Of a DNA stretch of 64,000 bases, positions 22,502 through 40,147 are shown piece by piece. The DNA is from Halobacteriovoraceae bacterium (GTDB lineage Bacteria; Bdellovibrionota; Bacteriovoracia; Bacteriovoracales; Bacteriovoracaceae), in the NCBI GenBank assembly GCA_002712005.1, contig PASP01000016.1, forward strand, positions 124,001-188,000, given 5' to 3'. Under the pieces are notes generated by a model. That model had not been told where the DNA came from. It saw nothing but the letters and a program-made list of their open reading frames with translations, and searched no databases. The position numbers and the translations under genes are program-made. The first letter of the stretch is position 1; each line of letters starts with the position of its first letter.

Positions 22502-23287
22502 CTAACAATTCTTTGATAGGGAAACAAATTCGCGGTGAAGTCCTTTCATATCTCCGGCAGAACCTTGAAAATTCATATAGTGAAACTTATCTTCACTCTT
22601 AATATGAAATCCTTCCGAGTCTACAGCTACTAAAGTTGCATCGTTCATTTCTTTATCTAATAAAGCTTTTGTGTACTTTACTAGTGATGACTTGTGATCT
22701 TTGTTCATATGATCGATTGCAGACTGTTCACTCCCCTTCCATTCTGGAGTCGGTAAGCTCCAATTACCTTCAGCTTTATAATCATAAATTTGTCCAAATG
22801 TTCTTACAAAATGTACGTGAACAGGCTTAATGGTAAAGAAGTAAAAATTGTGGGCCTTAAAATAATTTCTGGCCATAGGAAAGAATGTAAAATACTTCTC
22901 AGAAATAGTAGCGAATTTCTCAGGCTCTTTCTTTTCATCAATTTGAGTTGCCTCAGCTACAAGAGAAACTCGTGGAGAAGCTTGCTTAAAGCTTGCTTCC
23001 ATATCAAAAACAGTAAAACATACTTGGGGTGCTTTCCACATATTATGAGTGTGAGGCGCAAGATCACTAACAAGTATAATAACATCCCCTTCCTCAGTCA
23101 GAACATAGGGAGTTAAACTTCCAAGAGGATATGACTTATCTTCATAAGAACCTAAACTAGATAATATTCCACTATCCCATTTTTTCATGAAAGCTCTTGC
23201 AACTCGCGATACTTCTTTCATATCTTTCATTAATTCTGGACGTCCACGTCCCTTTGTTGCTGTTTTTGTTTCTTCATTTTCACTCAT
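22502..23287 (-). CDS. HutZ/HugZ-family heme utilisation protein
   Basis: A 261-aa protein with a split-barrel flavin-type fold (residues ~25-165: RAFMKKWDSGILSSL, YPLGSLTPYVL, HTHNMWKAPQVCFTVFD) followed by a DUF2470-like C-terminal domain starting at AIDHMNKDHKSSL. This arrangement is typical of HutZ/HugZ, which bind and break down heme to release iron. It is the last gene in a run of heme ABC transporter genes, 12 nt after the ATPase gene, which strongly supports the role. A Lys/Arg/Gly-rich N-terminal tail precedes the fold. Confidence 0.82.
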   Translation of the reverse strand: MSENEETKTATKGRGRPELMKDMKEVSRVARAFMKKWDSGILSSLGSYEDKSYPLGSLTPYVLTEEGDVIILVSDLAPHTHNMWKAPQVCFTVFDMEASFKQASPRVSLVAEATQIDEKKEPEKFATISEKYFTFFPMARNYFKAHNFYFFTIKPVHVHFVRTFGQIYDYKAEGNWSLPTPEWKGSEQSAIDHMNKDHKSSLVKYTKALLDKEMNDATLVAVDSEGFHIKSEDKFHYMNFQGSAGDMKGLHREFVSLSKNC

Positions 23288-23299
23288 AAATCCCCCTAT

Positions 23300-24091
23300 T
23301 TAATTAAAGATCATAATTGGATATTTTTGTTCACTTTTTAAAATTTGAGTATCCACTTCAAAATATTTTAAAAGATTCGCCTCGGTAAAAACTTCATAAG
23401 AACTTCCCTCTAAGGCACATCTTCCTTTTTCTAATAAATAAATTTTTGAGCAGTGCTTAGCAATATAGTTGAGATCATGTAAAACGAAAACTACTGTAAG
23501 TTTATATTTTCTAACAAGCTCAGAAATACGCTTCAGTATCATTTGTTGCACTGATAGGTCTAAGGCCGAGAGAGGTTCATCTAAGAAGAGTACTTTATCT
23601 CTATTTTTTTCTTCAAAGGGCAGTAGTTGACACAGAGCTCTTCCAAATTGAACCTTTTGTCTTTCTCCTCCAGAGAGCGAAGGATAAGAAGTATCAAGAA
23701 GATCATTCAAATTTAAAGACTCAATGACTTCATCGACAATTTTATAGTCTTCTAAACTTAAGTTTCCGTGTGGAAAACGTCCCATCAAGAGAATATCCAG
23801 CACAGAAAGTCCAAAACTCACCGGTATCTCTTGGGATAAGACACTTCTTTTCAATGCCAACTCACGTGAAGAGTAATGAGAAATATCTTTGCCATCGAGA
23901 AGAATGTCACCTTGAGTAGGAACGATTAAGCCAGAAAGGATTTTTATGAGAGATGATTTCCCAGCCCCATTTCTCCCTATGATCCCAGTGATTGAGCCTT
24001 TCTCAATCTTTAAATCGATATCATCAACTATCGTTTTATATTGACCTTTTCCTATTTGTACAGAGTAAGAGATTCCTTTAGCCTCGATCAA
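23300..24091 (-). CDS. hmuV: Heme ABC transporter ATP-binding protein
   Basis: A 263-aa ATPase with Walker A IGRNGAGKSSLIKIL, signature LSGGERQKVQFGRAL, Walker B KVLFLDEPLSALD and switch His VFVLHDLNYIA. The FecE/HmuV type fits the adjacent FecCD permease and heme-binding protein. It energises import of heme from the periplasm. The ATG overlaps the end of the permease gene by 4 nt (ATGA). Confidence 0.88.
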   Translation of the reverse strand: MIEAKGISYSVQIGKGQYKTIVDDIDLKIEKGSITGIIGRNGAGKSSLIKILSGLIVPTQGDILLDGKDISHYSSRELALKRSVLSQEIPVSFGLSVLDILLMGRFPHGNLSLEDYKIVDEVIESLNLNDLLDTSYPSLSGGERQKVQFGRALCQLLPFEEKNRDKVLFLDEPLSALDLSVQQMILKRISELVRKYKLTVVFVLHDLNYIAKHCSKIYLLEKGRCALEGSSYEVFTEANLLKYFEVDTQILKSEQKYPIMIFN

Positions 24092-25152
24092 GATAATCTC
24101 CTTTTTTGTTTTAAAAGAAGATAAGTAAAGAAAGGAGTACCAACAATGGAGGTTATAATTCCGATGGGGAGCTCAGAAGGTGCAACTACATTCTTTGCCA
24201 CGATATCCGAAAGAACAAGAAAAACGCCACCTAATAAGAATGAGCAAATCAATAAAGAAGAGCTCTTTGGCCCTAAGAATAATCTTAAAATATGAGGAAC
24301 AACGAGTCCTACAAACCCTATAACGCCTACGAAAGCCGTTAAAGGACCACATATAACAGCAGAGAGAATGAGTACCGTCTTTTTTACTTTATCTGTATCA
24401 ACCCCTAAATAGAGAGCCTCTCTTTCACCTAAGGCCAAAGCATCCAATTCCTTATGAAATGAGTAGAGATAGGAGCTAGCTCCCAAAACGAGTAGACTTA
24501 ACAGAGAAATAATAGGCCAAGTTGCCCCATTCAATGATCCCATAGACCAAAAGGTTATTGATCTTAACTGCTCATCATTAAGTAAAGTGATGAGAAGTCC
24601 AGAATAGGCTCCAGCAAAAGCATTCACGGCCACTCCGGCCAAAAGCATAATAGCAATTTGAATACGTCCATGGCTAAGAGAAATTCTATAAACGAGGAAG
24701 CCTAAAAAGAGAGCTCCCAAAAAAGCGAGACTTGGCAAAAAGAATAAGGGGTAACTTTCAAAGAAGGATTGAAAAAAAGGAATAAGTTTCAGTAAGAAGG
24801 TTCCGGTTATCACCCCTAACATAGCACCACTTGAAATACCGATCAGACCAGAGTCCGCAAGGGGGTTGTTAAAAAGTATTTGAAGAGCAGCACCAGCTAA
24901 AGCAAGTCCCCCTCCCGCCAATAGCCCAAGAAGAACACGAGGCAACCTGATATTTAGAACAAGTTCTTTAATAAGAGAAGGCTCCTGATTAAACGCCCTT
25001 TCTATAGAGTCAATAAAACCAGAAGCGGGTCCAAGAAAAATACCCAAAACAATAGTCATGAGAAGCAGAACTAAGAGTACGCAAAAAGTACGGAAAAATT
25101 TACGCTGTTGTTTGATATAGAGCGCTCTAGAATGGAGTACGGCCTCAGTCAT
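24088..25152 (-). CDS. hmuU: Heme ABC transporter permease (FecCD family)
   Basis: A 354-aa inner-membrane permease with about nine helices. FecCD signatures include NIRLPRVLLGLLAGGGLALAG, FNNPLADSGLIGISSGAMLG, GVAVNAFAGA and FVGVIGFVGLVVPHILRL. I chose the ATG at 25152, 7 nt after the upstream stop; a TTG at 25191 would add 13 residues and overlap the binding-protein gene. With HmuT and HmuV it forms the heme importer. Confidence 0.85.
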   Translation of the reverse strand: MTEAVLHSRALYIKQQRKFFRTFCVLLVLLLMTIVLGIFLGPASGFIDSIERAFNQEPSLIKELVLNIRLPRVLLGLLAGGGLALAGAALQILFNNPLADSGLIGISSGAMLGVITGTFLLKLIPFFQSFFESYPLFFLPSLAFLGALFLGFLVYRISLSHGRIQIAIMLLAGVAVNAFAGAYSGLLITLLNDEQLRSITFWSMGSLNGATWPIISLLSLLVLGASSYLYSFHKELDALALGEREALYLGVDTDKVKKTVLILSAVICGPLTAFVGVIGFVGLVVPHILRLFLGPKSSSLLICSFLLGGVFLVLSDIVAKNVVAPSELPIGIITSIVGTPFFTYLLLKQKRRLS

Positions 25153-25159
25153 AATTGAA

Positions 25160-25993
25160 TTAAAGATTATGGATTTTTTTAGAAAACTCAATCAATTCAC
25201 TCGCTGAGCGTGGTCCAAAACCTAAGAATGAGAGATCATCTACTAAAATCATATTTTTATTTTTACCAGCAGTTGTATGCTCAATTCCTTTTATAGAAGA
25301 CCAAGGATTTTTTAAGCTATCCTTACCACTTTTTAGCATCACTACTGCATCTGGATTGCTTTCAATTAAGGCTTCCGTAGTAATGGGTTTAAATCCTTTC
25401 ACTTGATCGAAAGCATTCTTTGCTCCAGCGAGCTGAATCATTTTATCTGCAGCAGTCTCTGACCCAGAAAGGAAAATTCGATTTCCCCCTCTAGCATAGA
25501 TAAAAACGAGTTTCTTTTTAATTTCTTTGTTTGAAGCTTTCTCTTTGGCAACGCTCAATTCTTTTTCTAATTTGGAAATGAGCATTTTTCCCTTTTCGGC
25601 TCTATTGAGTTTATTTGCCACGACTTTAATCTTTTCTTTAGCACTCTCGAACGTGTCCTCTTCTTTAACAACAACGAGATTCACTTTAAGCTTTTTGAGT
25701 GAGTCGATAAGGGGTTGTGGAGTTAATTTAGTACTCGCCAAAACAATATCAGGATTTAAAGAAACAATTCCCTCCATACTAATACTTTGACGATAGCCGA
25801 GATTCTTAATGTTCTTCACTTTTTCTTCAGGATAGACTGAAGTAGCATCAATACCTACAATTTTTTCCCCTAAGCCTAATTCAAAAACAATTTCAGTTAG
25901 AGTTCCACCAATACTTACGATCCTATTTTGAGCAAAAGTATAATGAGAGCAAAATATAAAAAAAGTAATGAAAAGTAGCTTAGGGTGTCTCAT
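25160..25993 (-). CDS. hmuT: Periplasmic heme-binding protein of the ABC importer
   Basis: A 277-aa protein with a signal peptide ending TFAQ. The family pattern is RIVSIGGTLTEIVFELGLGEKIVGID, GYRQSISMEGIVSLNPDIVLAS and the late LVDDLSFLGFGPRSASELI. These match the HmuT cluster of class-III binding proteins. It collects heme after outer-membrane passage and delivers it to the permease. AAGGA precedes the ATG. The gene upstream (26016) is 22 nt away and probably in the same transcript. Confidence 0.85.
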   Translation of the reverse strand: MRHPKLLFITFFIFCSHYTFAQNRIVSIGGTLTEIVFELGLGEKIVGIDATSVYPEEKVKNIKNLGYRQSISMEGIVSLNPDIVLASTKLTPQPLIDSLKKLKVNLVVVKEEDTFESAKEKIKVVANKLNRAEKGKMLISKLEKELSVAKEKASNKEIKKKLVFIYARGGNRIFLSGSETAADKMIQLAGAKNAFDQVKGFKPITTEALIESNPDAVVMLKSGKDSLKNPWSSIKGIEHTTAGKNKNMILVDDLSFLGFGPRSASELIEFSKKIHNL

Positions 25994-26015
25994 AAGAATC
26001 CTTCGATATTAGATA

Positions 26016-26429
26016 CTATTGACAAAAATTTGTTTCAAATTGAACGGAAAGAAGATTGTCTTCGGTAAGTTCAACATTGGGTACTTGAATGACTTGATGT
26101 CCACCATCGAGAAGATAAACAGTAAGATGAACAGCATCACCAATATTCATTCCGATATCTTCAAGAGTCTCAGTAAAATGTTCGGCCAAACGACATTTAT
26201 AATCACTTCCGTAAAGTTTCTTGGTATCATCAATGATCTTTTGAGTTTCAACACCATTAATCGCAATAACAAGATTTGTATAATTCTCATCTAAATAGTC
26301 TGGATTTTCAGCTTGAATGAAATCCCCTCTTCCAGGAAATTGTCCAAATTCGATATAGGTAAAAGGAGACTTTTCTGCAAACGTAGATAAGCTCATAAAG
26401 GCAATTAAGAATAGGCTAAAAATTTTCAT
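26016..26429 (-). CDS. Secreted protein at the head of the heme operon
   Basis: A 137-aa protein with a signal peptide (MKIFSLFLIAFMSLSTFAE) and GGGGAG as ribosome site. The mature part contains two cysteines (CRLAEHFTE and the C-terminal NFCQ) and a His in GGHQVIQVPNV. No family recognised. It lies 22 nt before hmuT and is divergent from the TonB receptor gene, so an accessory role in heme or iron uptake is possible but inferred from position alone. Confidence 0.65.
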   Translation of the reverse strand: MKIFSLFLIAFMSLSTFAEKSPFTYIEFGQFPGRGDFIQAENPDYLDENYTNLVIAINGVETQKIIDDTKKLYGSDYKCRLAEHFTETLEDIGMNIGDAVHLTVYLLDGGHQVIQVPNVELTEDNLLSVQFETNFCQ

Positions 26430-26456
26430 ATCTTTGCTCCCCGTATTAAGAAAATA

Positions 26457-26485
26457 TTGTATGGATTGAATTTAAATGCTAAAAG
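26457..26485 (+). promoter_or_regulatory. Possible leaderless promoter of the TonB receptor gene
   Basis: TTGTAT (26457-26462), a 17-nt spacer and TAAAAG (26480-26485) are followed by TTTGAT and the ATG at 26492. No Shine-Dalgarno is present. The -10 is weak. I saw no clear Fur box in this 62-bp divergent region. Confidence 0.35.
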
Positions 26486-26491
26486 TTTGAT

Positions 26492-28507
26492 ATGTCAAAC
26501 AAATGTAACCTCATTGCAACCTTTGTAGCCACAACCTTCCTCTCTATTTATCTCAGAGCGGAGCCTGTTTCTCACAAAAATCAGGGACTTATAGAGGTAA
26601 TCGGAAATAAAGAAGTCCACTCAGGACTCGTTGATGCTCCAGTAAAGGTAGAGATCCTATCTGAAGAGTATTTCAACGAACAACAATATCAAGACCTATC
26701 CGTTGCAGTTAAAGATATTCCAGGTGTCACCACTCTATCTTCAGATTTAAGAACCCAGGCAAAAACCCCAGTAATCCAAGGCTTTGGGGAAAACTCTGTT
26801 CTTGTCATGATTGATGGCGTTCCAGTGGGACAGAATTCAAGTTTTGGATTTGATCTTTCCCAAGTGGCCACATCTAATATTGAGAGGGTCGAAGTCATAA
26901 AAGGAGCTTCAAGTTCTCTCTATGGGTCACAGGCCATGGGTGGAGTGATTAATATTGTCACTAAGAAAGGCTCTGATAAAACACGTCTAGAATTAGAAGC
27001 ATCCGCCTCACAAATGACACAAACATCGGATGGTCGTTTAAAAAATCTGAAAGGTCATTTTGAGAAAAAACTATTTTCTTACCAGATGAAGATGACTTAC
27101 TCTTTACGAGAACAAGATCAATTTGATCTCGATGACCAATCGATCATTAAAGATGGAACTGACTTTCGAAGACAACAATTTGGTCTAAGAATAGATCGAA
27201 ATTTTGGAAAGCTTAGTACATTCTTTGATCTCCTTTATTTTAAAGGAAATATAGAAAGTTATTCCTCACGACCTCTCAGCTCTAATTCATTCGGTAAAAT
27301 CCAAAATATAACTGAAACTGATAATCTCAATCTCAAATTAGGAACCCAGGGAAAACTAGGTAAAGGCGAATTTAGAGGCATTATCAATATTGAAGATAAT
27401 GACGATCTTTTGATCTTAAGTGATCGTCCAGAGACTCCATTCATAGAGACTAAAAAGCTAACGGATTTCAAAGGAAAGCGAGTTGATATTCAATATAGAG
27501 ATTATGAACTTGGACAACACTCTATAACCACCGGACTTCTCTACAGAGAAAGCTTAGTTGATCAAAGAACAATTTCTCAAAGTACTCCAGAACTGATTGT
27601 TGAAACATCTGATGTTGAGAATAAAAGAGTTAGCTCCTATGAAGCATTTCTTCAAGACAACTTTTGGATAGATAGTTTTGAAATCTCACCGGGTGCTCGC
27701 TATCAATACGACAAAGATTTTGGTTCCCATGTTGCTCCAAAAATTAACATTTCACACTTTAGCGATTATAAAAATTTTGGTTTTAAGACATGGGCATCTG
27801 TAGGTACAGGTTATCGGGCCCCCTCAGTAAAAGAAAGATTTTTCACATTAGATCACACATCACTGGCCAATTATATAGTAGAAGGAAATCCTGATTTAAA
27901 ACCTGAAGAGTCTTTGAGTTTTCAACTGGGACAAGAAATAAAATGGGAGTCGTCTTCAAAACAGTCTCAAATGAATCTCTACGGAAATCTTTTCTTCAAT
28001 AAGATAAGTAATCTAATCGAAATCAATCAGGGACAATCCGATGGGTCACAAACTATTTTTACCTATGATAACTTCGATAAGGTCACAAGTAAGGGGATAG
28101 AAATAGGACTGAAAGGTTCCTATCAGAAATTAAACTTTAGACTCAATGGCTCTTATACAGAAACAGTCGATAGAACAACCGATTTAATTATAGCGAATCG
28201 CCCTCTATATTTGGGAATGTTTTCATTGGGGTATAAACTTACAGATAAAATATCTTTACTCTCGCTAACTCGATATAATGGGAAGTCCTACGCCGACAAA
28301 GAAAATGAACAAATTTCGAAATCTTTTCTCACGACAGACATTAAAGTTAACTATGACATCACTCAAAATTTAACAAGTTTTTTGAGTATCAATAATATTT
28401 TTAATGAAACTAAAGATCCTGCTCAGGATACTGTTACCCCACAATTTGATGGACGTCCTAACAGAGGAACTGAAATCTTTTTAGGGTTTAGACTAAGGGC
28501 CATTTGA
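26492..28507 (+). CDS. TonB-dependent outer-membrane receptor, probably for heme
   Basis: A 671-aa receptor with a signal peptide (to about residue 23), a TonB-box-like GLIEVIGNKE, and a plug domain: DLSVAVKDIPGVTTLSS, TPVIQGFGENSVLVMIDGVP, NIERVEVIKGASSSLYGSQA, GGVINIVTKKG. The remaining ~500 residues are a 22-strand barrel with YRAPSVKERFF and NLKPEESLSFQLG. The C-terminal residue is Ile rather than the usual Phe. The next gene is an HmuY-like lipoprotein and the divergent operon encodes a heme importer, so heme is the likely ligand. Confidence 0.88.
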   Translation: MSNKCNLIATFVATTFLSIYLRAEPVSHKNQGLIEVIGNKEVHSGLVDAPVKVEILSEEYFNEQQYQDLSVAVKDIPGVTTLSSDLRTQAKTPVIQGFGENSVLVMIDGVPVGQNSSFGFDLSQVATSNIERVEVIKGASSSLYGSQAMGGVINIVTKKGSDKTRLELEASASQMTQTSDGRLKNLKGHFEKKLFSYQMKMTYSLREQDQFDLDDQSIIKDGTDFRRQQFGLRIDRNFGKLSTFFDLLYFKGNIESYSSRPLSSNSFGKIQNITETDNLNLKLGTQGKLGKGEFRGIINIEDNDDLLILSDRPETPFIETKKLTDFKGKRVDIQYRDYELGQHSITTGLLYRESLVDQRTISQSTPELIVETSDVENKRVSSYEAFLQDNFWIDSFEISPGARYQYDKDFGSHVAPKINISHFSDYKNFGFKTWASVGTGYRAPSVKERFFTLDHTSLANYIVEGNPDLKPEESLSFQLGQEIKWESSSKQSQMNLYGNLFFNKISNLIEINQGQSDGSQTIFTYDNFDKVTSKGIEIGLKGSYQKLNFRLNGSYTETVDRTTDLIIANRPLYLGMFSLGYKLTDKISLLSLTRYNGKSYADKENEQISKSFLTTDIKVNYDITQNLTSFLSINNIFNETKDPAQDTVTPQFDGRPNRGTEIFLGFRLRAI

Positions 28508-36934: not shown

Positions 36935-37243
36935 GCCAATGATAGAAACGAGAAGAAGTGTTAAGAAAAAAACTCTTGAAAGACTTATGGGTTCATTAAA
37001 AAGAAGAATCCCTAAGATCGCTGTGCCCAAAGCTCCAATTCCGACCCAGACGCCATAGGCTGTTCCTATGGGAAGGCTTTGACTCGCTTTGGCCAAGAGA
37101 TACATGCTAAGTGAAAGTGTGAAAGCAGTGAAAAGAGATGGCCAAAGCTTGGTAAAGCCTTCGCTATATTTAAGCCCTATGGCCCAACAAATTTCAAGTA
37201 AACCAGCAAGAATTAAAGTAAACCACGCCCATTGTGCTGTCAT
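36920..37243 (-). CDS. gdx: SMR-family guanidinium exporter Gdx (SugE)
   Basis: A 107-aa four-helix protein. The helix-1 motif LILAGLLEICWAIGLKYSEG, with the essential Glu and Trp, and LPIGTAYGVWVGIGALGTA match the Gdx/SugE branch rather than EmrE. Gdx proteins export guanidinium in exchange for protons as antiparallel dimers. A guanidine-III riboswitch lies directly upstream and a GGAGG sits 7 nt before the ATG, which settles function well. Confidence 0.92.
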   Translation of the reverse strand: MTAQWAWFTLILAGLLEICWAIGLKYSEGFTKLWPSLFTAFTLSLSMYLLAKASQSLPIGTAYGVWVGIGALGTAILGILLFNEPISLSRVFFLTLLLVSIIGLKMA

Positions 37244-37270
37244 AAAAATACCTCCAAATATTTGATATTA

Positions 37271-37310
37271 GAGCCGTCTTTACTTACATGGTACGGTTCA
37301 CCTCGTCATG
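37271..37310 (-). ncRNA. Guanidine-III riboswitch controlling gdx
   Basis: On the minus strand, from 37310, the leader reads CATGACGAGGTGAACCGTAC, then CATGTAAGTAAAGACGGCTC. The conserved blocks of the guanidine-III class are all there in order: ACGAGGUG, CCGU, ACC and AAGACGG. CAUG pairs with CAUG (P1), and GAaCCGU with ACGGcUC (P2, one mismatch); the class folds as a pseudoknot that binds guanidinium. It ends 15 nt before the GGAGG of gdx, so control of translation start is likely: guanidine would switch the exporter on. Confidence 0.88.
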
Positions 37311-37357: not shown

Positions 37358-37385
37358 TTGACCAGTCGGTCAAATAAGTTAAACT
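37358..37385 (+). promoter_or_regulatory. TetR operator 1 and overlapping leaderless promoter
   Basis: TTGACC-AGTC-GGTCAA (37358-37373) is a perfect inverted repeat with 6-bp arms. Its left arm also serves as a -35; a 16-nt spacer leads to TAAACT (37380-37385), then 6 nt to the ATG at 37392. No Shine-Dalgarno is present. Binding of the regulator here would block its own promoter. The same palindrome recurs at 37977. Confidence 0.72.
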
Positions 37386-37391
37386 TCCCCT

Positions 37392-37961
37392 ATGAGTAGA
37401 ACTACGGAATTTGATAGAGAAGATATTATTGCTAAGGCCATGAACTTGTTCTGGAACAAAGGTTTTGAAGGAACATCTCTTAAAGACCTCACCCAAGAGA
37501 CAGGATTACTTAAAGGTAGTCTTTATAATACTTTTAAATCAAAGGAGAATCTATTTCTTCTTTGCTTAGAAAAGTATGGCCAACATTCTCGCTCTTTCTT
37601 CTATAATACAGGTGATCCAAACCTCTATCTTAAAAACTTCTTTAAAAGACTCGTTCATGAAGGAGTCAAAGAAGATAATACTAAAGGTTGCCTCATCATG
37701 AACTCATGTCTTGAATTGGCGACTCTAGACAATGCACCGGCCAAACGAACGAAGGCTTTATTTTCTGCTGTTGAACTCAATTTTAAAAATGTATTAGAAA
37801 AGATTGAACTCACCCACACAAGCAAGAAAAGAGATGAGCTCGCTACGATGCTAATTACGACAGCCTTTTCGATTAGAGAAATTTCAAAATTTAAGAAGGA
37901 TAAGAAATTTCTCAAACAAATTGCCAACAACACACTAAGTGAGTTTGGGTTGAAGATTTAG
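37392..37961 (+). CDS. TetR-family repressor of the redox operon
   Basis: A 189-aa regulator. The N-terminal helix-turn-helix is seen in REDIIAKAMNLFWNKGFEGT, SLKDLTQETGLLKGSLYNTF and KSKENLFLLCLEKY. The C-terminal ligand domain contains four cysteines (residues ~61-106, including CLIMNSC), so it may sense thiol-reactive compounds. Matching palindromes lie before this gene and between it and the next, so it most likely represses itself and the downstream CcdA-peroxiredoxin genes. Confidence 0.87.
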   Translation: MSRTTEFDREDIIAKAMNLFWNKGFEGTSLKDLTQETGLLKGSLYNTFKSKENLFLLCLEKYGQHSRSFFYNTGDPNLYLKNFFKRLVHEGVKEDNTKGCLIMNSCLELATLDNAPAKRTKALFSAVELNFKNVLEKIELTHTSKKRDELATMLITTAFSIREISKFKKDKKFLKQIANNTLSEFGLKI

Positions 37962-37976
37962 TTTTTTTTAATCATT

Positions 37977-37996
37977 ATTTGACCATTTGGTCAAAT
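37977..37996 (+). promoter_or_regulatory. TetR operator 2
   Basis: ATTTGACCATTTGGTCAAAT is a perfect 20-bp palindrome (8-bp arms, ATTT centre). It lies 15 nt after the tetR stop and 16 nt before the start of the CcdA-like gene. The core TTGACC-N4-GGTCAA equals operator 1. Confidence 0.82.
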
Positions 37997-38012
37997 ACAC
38001 AAAAGGATGACC

Positions 38013-38741
38013 ATGTCGATAAGTCTCGTTCTCAGCTCTTTTTTAGCAGGATTTCTGACCATTTTTTCTCCCTGTATCCTACCCATGGTTCCTTTTGTTG
38101 CCAGATCTTCATTCCAACGTTCCTATTGGGGACCTGTTTTTCTTGCTCTTGGAGTAGCCATTAGCTTTTCCATCTCAACCTATATTATAGCAACGTCGGG
38201 ACAGCTCTTAGGTTTAACTCCCGATAAACTTAAAATTCTATCGGGAGTCTTTCTATTACTTGCCTCTCTTCTTTTTCTCTTCCCTAAAGGGATTGATAAG
38301 ATCTCATCTCTTCTTTCTCCAATTAATAATAAGCTTCAAAGTATTACCCAAGGAAAAATGGCCAAGAATAACTCTGTGCTTATGGAGTTTATAAACGGCT
38401 TATTTTTAGGTCCGATCTGGGCACCTTGTAGTGGTCCAACTCTTGCGATCATTATTGGCATCATAATCAATAATCCAGAAACAAAGTCTTCTATGATCCT
38501 TCTCAGTATATTTTCACTGGGTTCCATTCTTCCTATTCTCTTTCTTTCCTACGGAGCACAATCTCTAGTATCTAAAGTTCAAAAAAAGAGTTTAGAGAAT
38601 TCAAAAAATGTAAAGATTGGACTTGGAATTTTTTGTGCGATCATGGCGATTCTTATTCTAACTGGACTTGATAAAGCCCTTGAAACTTTTCTCTTAAGCA
38701 TTTTACCCGAAGCAATAACAAACCTTTCATTAACCATTTAA
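38013..38741 (+). CDS. CcdA-type thiol-redox membrane protein
   Basis: A 242-aa membrane protein with six helices. I chose the ATG at 38013 because AAAAGG is 6 nt upstream; an ATG at 38007 would touch it. The paired-Cys motifs are FSPCILPMVP (PCxxP) and GPIWAPCSGPT, the CcdA/DsbD-beta hallmark. Such proteins carry reducing equivalents across the inner membrane from cytoplasmic thioredoxin to periplasmic thiol proteins. The next gene encodes a likely exported thioredoxin-peroxiredoxin, an obvious partner. Confidence 0.85.
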   Translation: MSISLVLSSFLAGFLTIFSPCILPMVPFVARSSFQRSYWGPVFLALGVAISFSISTYIIATSGQLLGLTPDKLKILSGVFLLLASLLFLFPKGIDKISSLLSPINNKLQSITQGKMAKNNSVLMEFINGLFLGPIWAPCSGPTLAIIIGIIINNPETKSSMILLSIFSLGSILPILFLSYGAQSLVSKVQKKSLENSKNVKIGLGIFCAIMAILILTGLDKALETFLLSILPEAITNLSLTI

Positions 38742-38751
38742 AAAGGAATAA

Positions 38752-39747
38752 ATGATGAATAAAAAACTCTTAACGCTATTTTTATCTTTCTTTTCCCTAC
38801 TCACCTATAGTGATGACACAAAGAAGATTAACGAATTCATAAAGAGCAATGACAATGTTCTTGTTCACGTCCATGCGACATGGTGTCCGTCATGTAAAGC
38901 TCAAAAGAAGATACTCGATCAAATGAATAAAGATCATTTCAAGCTCTTAGAAGTTGATTTTGATAAAGATAAGAAATTTTTAAAAGATAATAAAATTTTT
39001 CAACAATCGATGCTCATTGCCTTTAATCAAGGAAAGGAGAAGGCTCGAGTTTTTGGAATTACTAAAAAGGAGAAAATTGTGGCTTTTACTGACAAAAACT
39101 TTGAATACTCACTACAAGAAGAAATTGATAATCGTCGAAAGGCATCAAATATACCAGATGCGGCTCGTATGACCATGGAACAAGCAACTGAGAAGTTACG
39201 AAAATCAGGTATCATTGATAAAGCGACAAAGAAAGGTGATCAATATATCGACTTTACTCTCCCCAATGTTCATGGCAAAGAAGTCACTCTCTCGGAAAAA
39301 TTAAAAGATGGGCCCATTGTACTTACTTTTTATCGTGGCGGATGGTGTCCTTATTGCAACCTACAATTAAAGGCCTATCAAGATCACTTAGAACAATTTA
39401 AAGCGGCAGGTGGACAGCTGATTGCCGTTTCTCCTGAATCAATGGAATCGGCCAATACTACAGTAAAAAAACACGAACTTCAGTACGAAATCCTTACTGA
39501 TAATAAGAATAAAGAAGCTCGTAAATATGGACTCGTTTTTCAACTCGAAGAAGATTTAAAAGAAGTCTATCTCAAGTTTGGATTAGATTTGGAGAAAAAC
39601 CAAGGAAACGATTCTTGGGAGCTTCCTGTTCCAGCGACCTATGTTATTTCTAAAGAGGGAAAAATTGTCTATTCTTTTCTCAATGTAGATTATGTTCAAA
39701 GAGCAGAACCCAATGATATAATCAAAGCCCTAGAGAGTCTAAAATAA
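38752..39747 (+). CDS. Exported thioredoxin-peroxiredoxin fusion
   Basis: A 331-aa protein with a signal-peptide-like N-terminus (residues 1-20). Residues ~22-115 are a thioredoxin domain with active site HATWCPSCKAQ (Cys 45 and 48). Residues ~160-331 are an AhpC/TSA peroxiredoxin with FYRGGWCPYCNLQLKAYQ (Cys 199 and 202) and VPATYVISKEGKIV. The fusion joins reductase and peroxidase in one chain. With the CcdA-like protein it could form a periplasmic peroxide-reducing relay. A paralogue of the peroxiredoxin half is encoded at 59582-60235. Confidence 0.85.
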   Translation: MMNKKLLTLFLSFFSLLTYSDDTKKINEFIKSNDNVLVHVHATWCPSCKAQKKILDQMNKDHFKLLEVDFDKDKKFLKDNKIFQQSMLIAFNQGKEKARVFGITKKEKIVAFTDKNFEYSLQEEIDNRRKASNIPDAARMTMEQATEKLRKSGIIDKATKKGDQYIDFTLPNVHGKEVTLSEKLKDGPIVLTFYRGGWCPYCNLQLKAYQDHLEQFKAAGGQLIAVSPESMESANTTVKKHELQYEILTDNKNKEARKYGLVFQLEEDLKEVYLKFGLDLEKNQGNDSWELPVPATYVISKEGKIVYSFLNVDYVQRAEPNDIIKALESLK

Positions 39748-39757
39748 CAAAGGATTA

Positions 39758-40147
39758 ATGATCATGGCCAAGGTACTCATTGTTGGAGCAAGCAATCGTC
39801 CAGAACGATATAGTTATAAGGCCCTAACGATGTTGAAAGATCATGGCCATGACCTTTTTCTTCAATCCCCTAAATATACAAATATTGAAGGTCACCTTGT
39901 TCAAAAGGAATTATCGGAAATCCAAACCTCAGTGGATGTCCTAACCCTTTACGTTAATCCGCAAATCAGTGACAAGATGAAAGATGATATCCTACGTCTT
40001 CGCCCTAAACTCGTCATATTCAATCCTGGAACAGAAAATGCTTACCTCATGGAAGCCTTGGAAAGTCAAAATATCAAAATTCTTGAGGCCTGTACCCTAG
40101 TCCTTTTATCAACAGGTCAATTCGATCAACAAATACCAGCAAGCTAA
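39758..40147 (+). CDS. CoA-binding-domain protein
   Basis: A 129-aa Rossmann-fold protein of the CoA-binding (YccU-like) family: AKVLIVGASNRPERYSYKAL, ...VDVLTLYVNPQ and ILRLRPKLVIFNPGTENAYL. The ATG at 39764 (MAKVLIVG) is equally possible and better spaced from AAAGGA. One Cys near the end (LEACTLVLL) is at the position conserved in the family. Function is not established; it sits in the TetR-controlled redox run between the peroxiredoxin fusion and SelO. Confidence 0.8.
   Translation: MIMAKVLIVGASNRPERYSYKALTMLKDHGHDLFLQSPKYTNIEGHLVQKELSEIQTSVDVLTLYVNPQISDKMKDDILRLRPKLVIFNPGTENAYLMEALESQNIKILEACTLVLLSTGQFDQQIPAS

Follow-up and report, generated by a model that had tools for sequence, protein, structure and literature searches.

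Does the short leader in front of the gdx gene on the minus strand of this 64,000-nucleotide stretch of DNA (hereafter the window) hold a genuine guanidine-III riboswitch, and how would such an RNA control its gene? The conserved blocks of the class are present at the locus, but the Rfam model of the family scores it below its gathering threshold. We conclude, with a confidence of roughly 85%, that the gdx leader is a guanidine-III (ykkC-III) riboswitch of a Bdellovibrionota subtype and a translational ON switch, in which ligand binding, switching and its direction are what we infer.

The gdx leader and its exporter gene

The letters of positions 37310-37271 on the minus strand are CATGACGAGGTGAACCGTACCATGTAAGTAAAGACGGCTC, and the aptamer read directly from this part of the window is CAUGACGAGGUGAACCGUACCAUGUAAGUAAAGACGGCUC. 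The conserved core blocks of guanidine-III RNAs, ACGAG, CCGUACC and AAGACG, are all present and in order, exactly where a first-pass annotation had placed them (Table 1). In the predicted H-type pseudoknot, P1 forms all four of its pairs (CAUG with CAUG) and P2 six of seven, the odd position being A14:C, and C20 finds its G partner. In the crystal structure of the T. fusca aptamer, G7 and G17 hydrogen-bond the ligand and C6 contacts it via stacking and its 2'-OH (PMC5696562); all three bases are kept in the window. The aptamer ends 15 nt from GGAGG, a distance given correctly at first pass, and 27 nt (37270-37244) separate it from the gdx start codon, which places it in the leader of a guanidine-related gene.

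The downstream gene had been described as a Gdx-type SMR exporter, and this is borne out by a PF00893 domain and by the best solved-structure match of its product, Gdx-Clo (6wk5, 6wk8 and 6wk9; 8.8e-32). Of the named SMR residues E13, W16, S42, Y59 and W62, W16 is conserved in Gdx proteins and replaced by glycine or alanine in Qac-type ones (PMC7695847); the equivalents of all five, the Gdx-specific W16 included, are kept in the window protein at +4. The NCBIfam SugE equivalog model scores the protein at 124.4, just under its cut-off of 126. Judged by these residues the protein is of the Gdx type, and guanidinium export is its predicted function. The gene is the only SMR gene found in the genome, and the aptamer lies directly before it. 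No gdx match is present in the other six genomes of the same genus, so that gdx and its switch are patchy within the genus, and no promoter was recognised for gdx on the minus strand.

Table 1. Features of the gdx locus in window coordinates.
Feature	Position	Strand	Basis
Guanidine-III aptamer (H-type pseudoknot), 40 nt	37271..37310	-	RF01763 27.5 bits; leave-one-out subtype model 59.5 bits, E 4e-16
P1 5' strand CAUG	37307..37310	-	4/4 pairs with 37290-37287
ACGAG, third strand and core; ligand-contacting C6 (37305) and G7 (37304)	37302..37306	-	Contacts from PMC5696562
P2 5' strand GAACCGU; G17 (37294) is a ligand contact	37293..37299	-	6/7 standard pairs with 37277-37271
P1 3' strand CAUG	37287..37290	-	Pairing with P1 5' strand checked
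G equivalent to T. fusca G29; fifth P1 pair with C20 (37291)	37283..37283	-	C-G in 33/33 sequences; PMC5696562
P2 3' strand ACGGCUC	37271..37277	-	Pairing and 33-sequence comparison
Anti-Shine-Dalgarno CUCUAA, sharing three nucleotides with the end of P2	37268..37273	-	Predicted apo pairing with 37257-37252
Shine-Dalgarno GGAGG	37251..37255	-	7 nt before ATG at 37243
gdx, predicted Gdx/SugE-type SMR guanidinium exporter, 107 aa	36920..37243	-	PF00893 1.5e-28; best solved match 6wk5/6wk8/6wk9
Palindrome TTGACC-N4-GGTCAA, probable tetR operator	37358..37373	.	Same palindrome before the G004 tetR homologue
Divergent TetR-family regulator	37392..37961	+	PF00440 2.4e-12

A guanidine-III subtype in Bdellovibrionota

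Guanidine-III RNAs are common in Bdellovibrionota: a phylum-wide search found matches at E 0.02 in 38 of 369 genomes. Two main sequence types emerge when the aptamers are read base by base. Most belong to the first, with P2 strands GCGCCGU and ACGACGC and an unpaired C15:A38, a type that Streptomyces, Myxococcus and a Legionella bin share. In the second the strands are GAACCGU and ACGGCUC; here C15-G38 is paired, A13-U40 replaces C13-G40 and A14:C39 is unpaired; it precedes gdx in over a dozen Bdellovibrionota genomes besides that of the window. The window aptamer belongs to this second type, and its A14:C mismatch is common to most of the subtype. As far as its sequence goes, it is a typical member of a Bdellovibrionota guanidine-III subtype.

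Comparison of 33 distinct sequences supports the published fold. Its pseudoknot pairs 90.7% of cells, against at most 43% for slid versions, and changes on both sides are seen at three of the four P1 pairs (1-24, 2-23 and 3-22) and at P2 pair 13-40, with 38 cells changed on both sides versus 12.6 in shuffles (33 sequences, 4 pairs). The C20-G29 pair is found in all 33, ACGA is invariant and G9 nearly so. Since the Rfam guanidine-III model cannot hold a pseudoknot and leaves P1 unmodelled, P1 pairing is independent evidence. Six of seven standard P2 pairs occur in nearly every sampled sequence, and a self-complementary P1 (CCGG) is the commonest form outside Streptomyces. The first-pass annotation had correctly seen a self-complementary CAUG stem and one P2 mismatch, but its verdict of a somewhat diverged example is misleading: one unpaired P2 position is the rule among the sampled sequences, and the idea that the mismatch means decay is corrected. 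The positions changed in the second type lie outside the pocket, where P2 forms a regular triplex (C15-G38:G10 and G14-C39:U11). On a Gdx tree, which has few columns and whose forks are weak, members of the subtype tend to group (6 label changes versus 14.2 when shuffled) without forming one clade.

A different departure is seen in Bdellovibrio bacteriovorus and its relatives (L076, L118, L123, L125-L131 and L133), which have ACGAU for ACGAG and ACGUAC for CCGUAC. The two changes, G9 to U and, at the P2 position next to it, C15 to A, make one more local variant of the P2 triplex.

At the locus, RF01763 gives 27.5 bits (E 0.0011 over 701 bases) against a gathering score of 36. It is the only Rfam family there with E below 1, and no other site in the 4.0-Mb genome matches it at E up to 10. 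We built a subtype covariance model, R1, from 16 second-type members with the window left out; it scores the window site at 59.5 bits (E 4.2e-16), and the next best site in the 64-kb window at 10.9 bits. Over the 369 genomes R1 scores are two-humped, with the second type at 47-66 bits and all others at most 27-28, in a sample that reaches as far as the Rfam and Gdx-similarity searches by which its members were found. Sibling aptamers of the same subtype have Rfam scores both above gathering (38-47 bits) and below, and among 14 second-type loci scanned, the window's included, only 4 have a guanidine-III match above the cut-off. The Rfam search proposed at first pass does find the family at the locus, and the shortfall named there as grounds for rejection is real, but it does not refute the assignment because siblings score on either side and R1 gives 59.5 bits. 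The missed gathering score is a sensitivity limit of the Rfam model, not a defining biological feature, and the cut-off misses many aptamers of one lineage. By every feature tested except that cut-off, which rejects siblings too, the sequence in the window is that of a guanidine-III aptamer. The class named at first pass is upheld by the R1 score, by a P1 that pairs and covaries and by the kept ligand contacts.

Predicted switching at the Shine-Dalgarno and alternative readings

In the predicted apo fold, CUCUAA (37273-37268), made up of the CUC of P2 and the adjoining UAA, pairs with UUGGAG (37257-37252), so that P2 and the Shine-Dalgarno hairpin are predicted to be mutually exclusive. With the P2 3' strand held, opening the Shine-Dalgarno is predicted to cost 0.8 instead of 5.6 kcal/mol in the window, and on average 0.35 instead of 5.6 kcal/mol in 17 second-type leaders. 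With 45 further bases, coding sequence included, the window cost falls from 8.2 to 3.7, in the same direction, and the drop exceeds 2 in 11 of the 17 leaders. Second-type linkers (17 leaders) hide the Shine-Dalgarno more than shuffled linkers do (p 0.0008); the window linker alone is unexceptional, with 14% of shuffles as good, and the window leader overall folds no better than shuffles (z -0.81). This opening-energy test took the place of a pairing-count test, so that one question was examined twice. The earlier test gave no excess of Shine-Dalgarno pairing with the P2 strand over shuffled linkers (19/84 versus 19.9), because the P2 strand of the subtype is itself complementary to GAG. By opening energy, the linkers of Streptomyces leaders give no excess over shuffles either. 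First-type leaders outside Streptomyces have much of their blocker immediately downstream of P2, and more occlusion, 2.1 kcal/mol, is left when the P2 strand is held. In second-type leaders, then, the modelled blocker is the P2 strand itself, with CUC used by both P2 and the hairpin.

For guanidine-III RNAs, a review describes guanidine freeing the Shine-Dalgarno, together with an RNase E effect (PMC12186494). In the gdx leader, pairing of CUC and UAA with UUGGAG would hide the Shine-Dalgarno and the start codon region when guanidine is absent, and little exporter would be made. Bound between G7 and G17, with C6 as its stacking partner, guanidinium would lock the P1/P2 pseudoknot; P2 would then take up CUC, the Shine-Dalgarno hairpin would lose its foot and GGAGG would be freed. 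As P2 formation would free the Shine-Dalgarno, we infer a translational ON switch that would raise guanidinium export. The earlier suggestion that control acts on translation gains support from the predicted hairpin that excludes P2. If correct, this places guanidine sensing and export in predatory-type Bdellovibrionota, and makes the subtype a simple test case of an aptamer some of whose bases also block its own Shine-Dalgarno.

By itself the Rfam score could not settle the choice between this reading and a chance resemblance, because a match of 27.4 bits, almost equal to that of the window, lies inside a peroxiredoxin coding sequence in another genome (G350; L142 1515-1556, G350:C144). This is a false positive and a useful negative control: the subtype model gives it 25.5 bits against 59.5 for the window site, which is also intergenic, directly before the only SMR gene and endowed with a pairing P1. 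Another RF01763 match, of 25.3 bits, lies inside a gene that reads as moeA-like from its translation (G325, L143). For practical purposes, chance resemblance is excluded by computation. That the subtype binds another ligand, a substituted guanidine or other cation, with the shifted mismatch reflecting changed specificity, strikes us as very improbable. The subtype does depart from the canonical form at P2 positions 13-15 and 38-40, and it also precedes LysE/ArgO-type exporters in two genomes; yet neither the core nor any of the three ligand-contacting bases has changed, the differences sit in the distal P2/triplex rather than in the pocket, and most members precede gdx.

The remaining alternatives accept the aptamer and move the main control elsewhere. 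An effect chiefly on mRNA stability, in which a guanidine-stabilised 5' pseudoknot blocks RNase E scanning and translation is secondary, has been reported for guanidine-III (PMC12186494), and a few subtype leaders (L007, L042 and L097) have a weak predicted Shine-Dalgarno hairpin or none. We regard this as unlikely to be the main effect here, given that in most Bdellovibrionota leaders the Shine-Dalgarno is predicted to be hidden in a hairpin incompatible with or abutting P2, and stability and translation effects can coexist. There is also a palindrome, TTGACC-N4-GGTCAA, between gdx and the divergent tetR gene, 47 nt upstream of the aptamer, and the TetR protein might mainly control gdx through it, leaving the RNA as a relic or modifier. 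We give this little credence: a tetR homologue in the same genus (58% identical; G004) has the same palindrome and no gdx nearby, with redox-type (MauE-like and peroxiredoxin-like) genes following it, the relatives inspected have no tetR next to gdx, and the aptamer is intact. Because G004 keeps the palindrome and tetR without gdx, the operator is most likely tetR's own and probably no part of the switch. Neither the neighbouring TetR nor its operator seems tied to the riboswitch; the operator may have an additional effect on the gdx promoter.

Two other gene groups were noted in the window. At 37392-40147, tetR is followed on the same strand by genes for a DsbD-like membrane protein, a fused thioredoxin/AhpC-TSA protein and a CoA-binding protein, which together with the palindrome (37358-37373) looks like a TetR-controlled redox cluster. 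At 22502-28507, the translations include a TonB-dependent receptor, a periplasmic binding protein, an ABC permease and ATPase and an FMN-type protein, possibly a heme uptake cluster; Rfam finds no riboswitch there.

A possible second exporter family and comparison with known systems

The most interesting by-product comes from two relatives in which an aptamer of this type stands before a LysE/ArgO-type gene. In one (G203; L146 1520-2202 and 2878-3260), a second-type aptamer precedes a LysE/ArgO-type exporter gene, and a second aptamer with gdx follows; the other (G317; L145 1522-2212 and 2877-end, also L071) has the same layout. The two LysE/ArgO-type genes match PF01810 (5e-32 and 4e-35), and in L146 an FMN_bind_2 gene lies between the LysE/ArgO-type gene and the second aptamer. 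The gene possibly encodes a second kind of exporter of guanidine or guanidino compounds, of which the literature searched makes no mention. These loci fit a broader reading that we hold tentatively, with the odds somewhat against it: a separate, under-annotated guanidine-III lineage of Bdellovibrionota, whose P2 3' strand is the anti-Shine-Dalgarno (CUC versus GAG) and which also controls LysE/ArgO-type exporters, pointing to a second exporter kind. If so, aptamer and expression platform would share bases.

Among known systems, the guanidine-I, -II and -IV riboswitches respond to the same ligand and often serve the same gene family (PMC12186494, PMC7736828), but have other folds, and none of them matched at the window locus. 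On the protein side, the predicted exporter of the window aligns to Gdx-Clo, which comes from another organism, without gaps over 101 residues and with the five key residues kept. With guanidine-III (ykkC-III, RF01763; T. fusca, PDB 5NWQ) the window RNA shares the block order, the P1/P2 pseudoknot, the core nucleotides, the C20-G29 pair, the C6, G7 and G17 contacts and the place before gdx near the Shine-Dalgarno. It differs in having an A14:C39 mismatch, where most sampled aptamers have C15:A38 and that of T. fusca is fully paired, in A13-U40 for C13-G40, in an ACGGCUC strand that carries the anti-Shine-Dalgarno CUC, in a weak 5' hairpin of A and U only, and in an Rfam score below gathering. 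The riboswitch class is known; the gdx leader is a newly found, real member of it, slightly unusual in how P2 and the Shine-Dalgarno are arranged.
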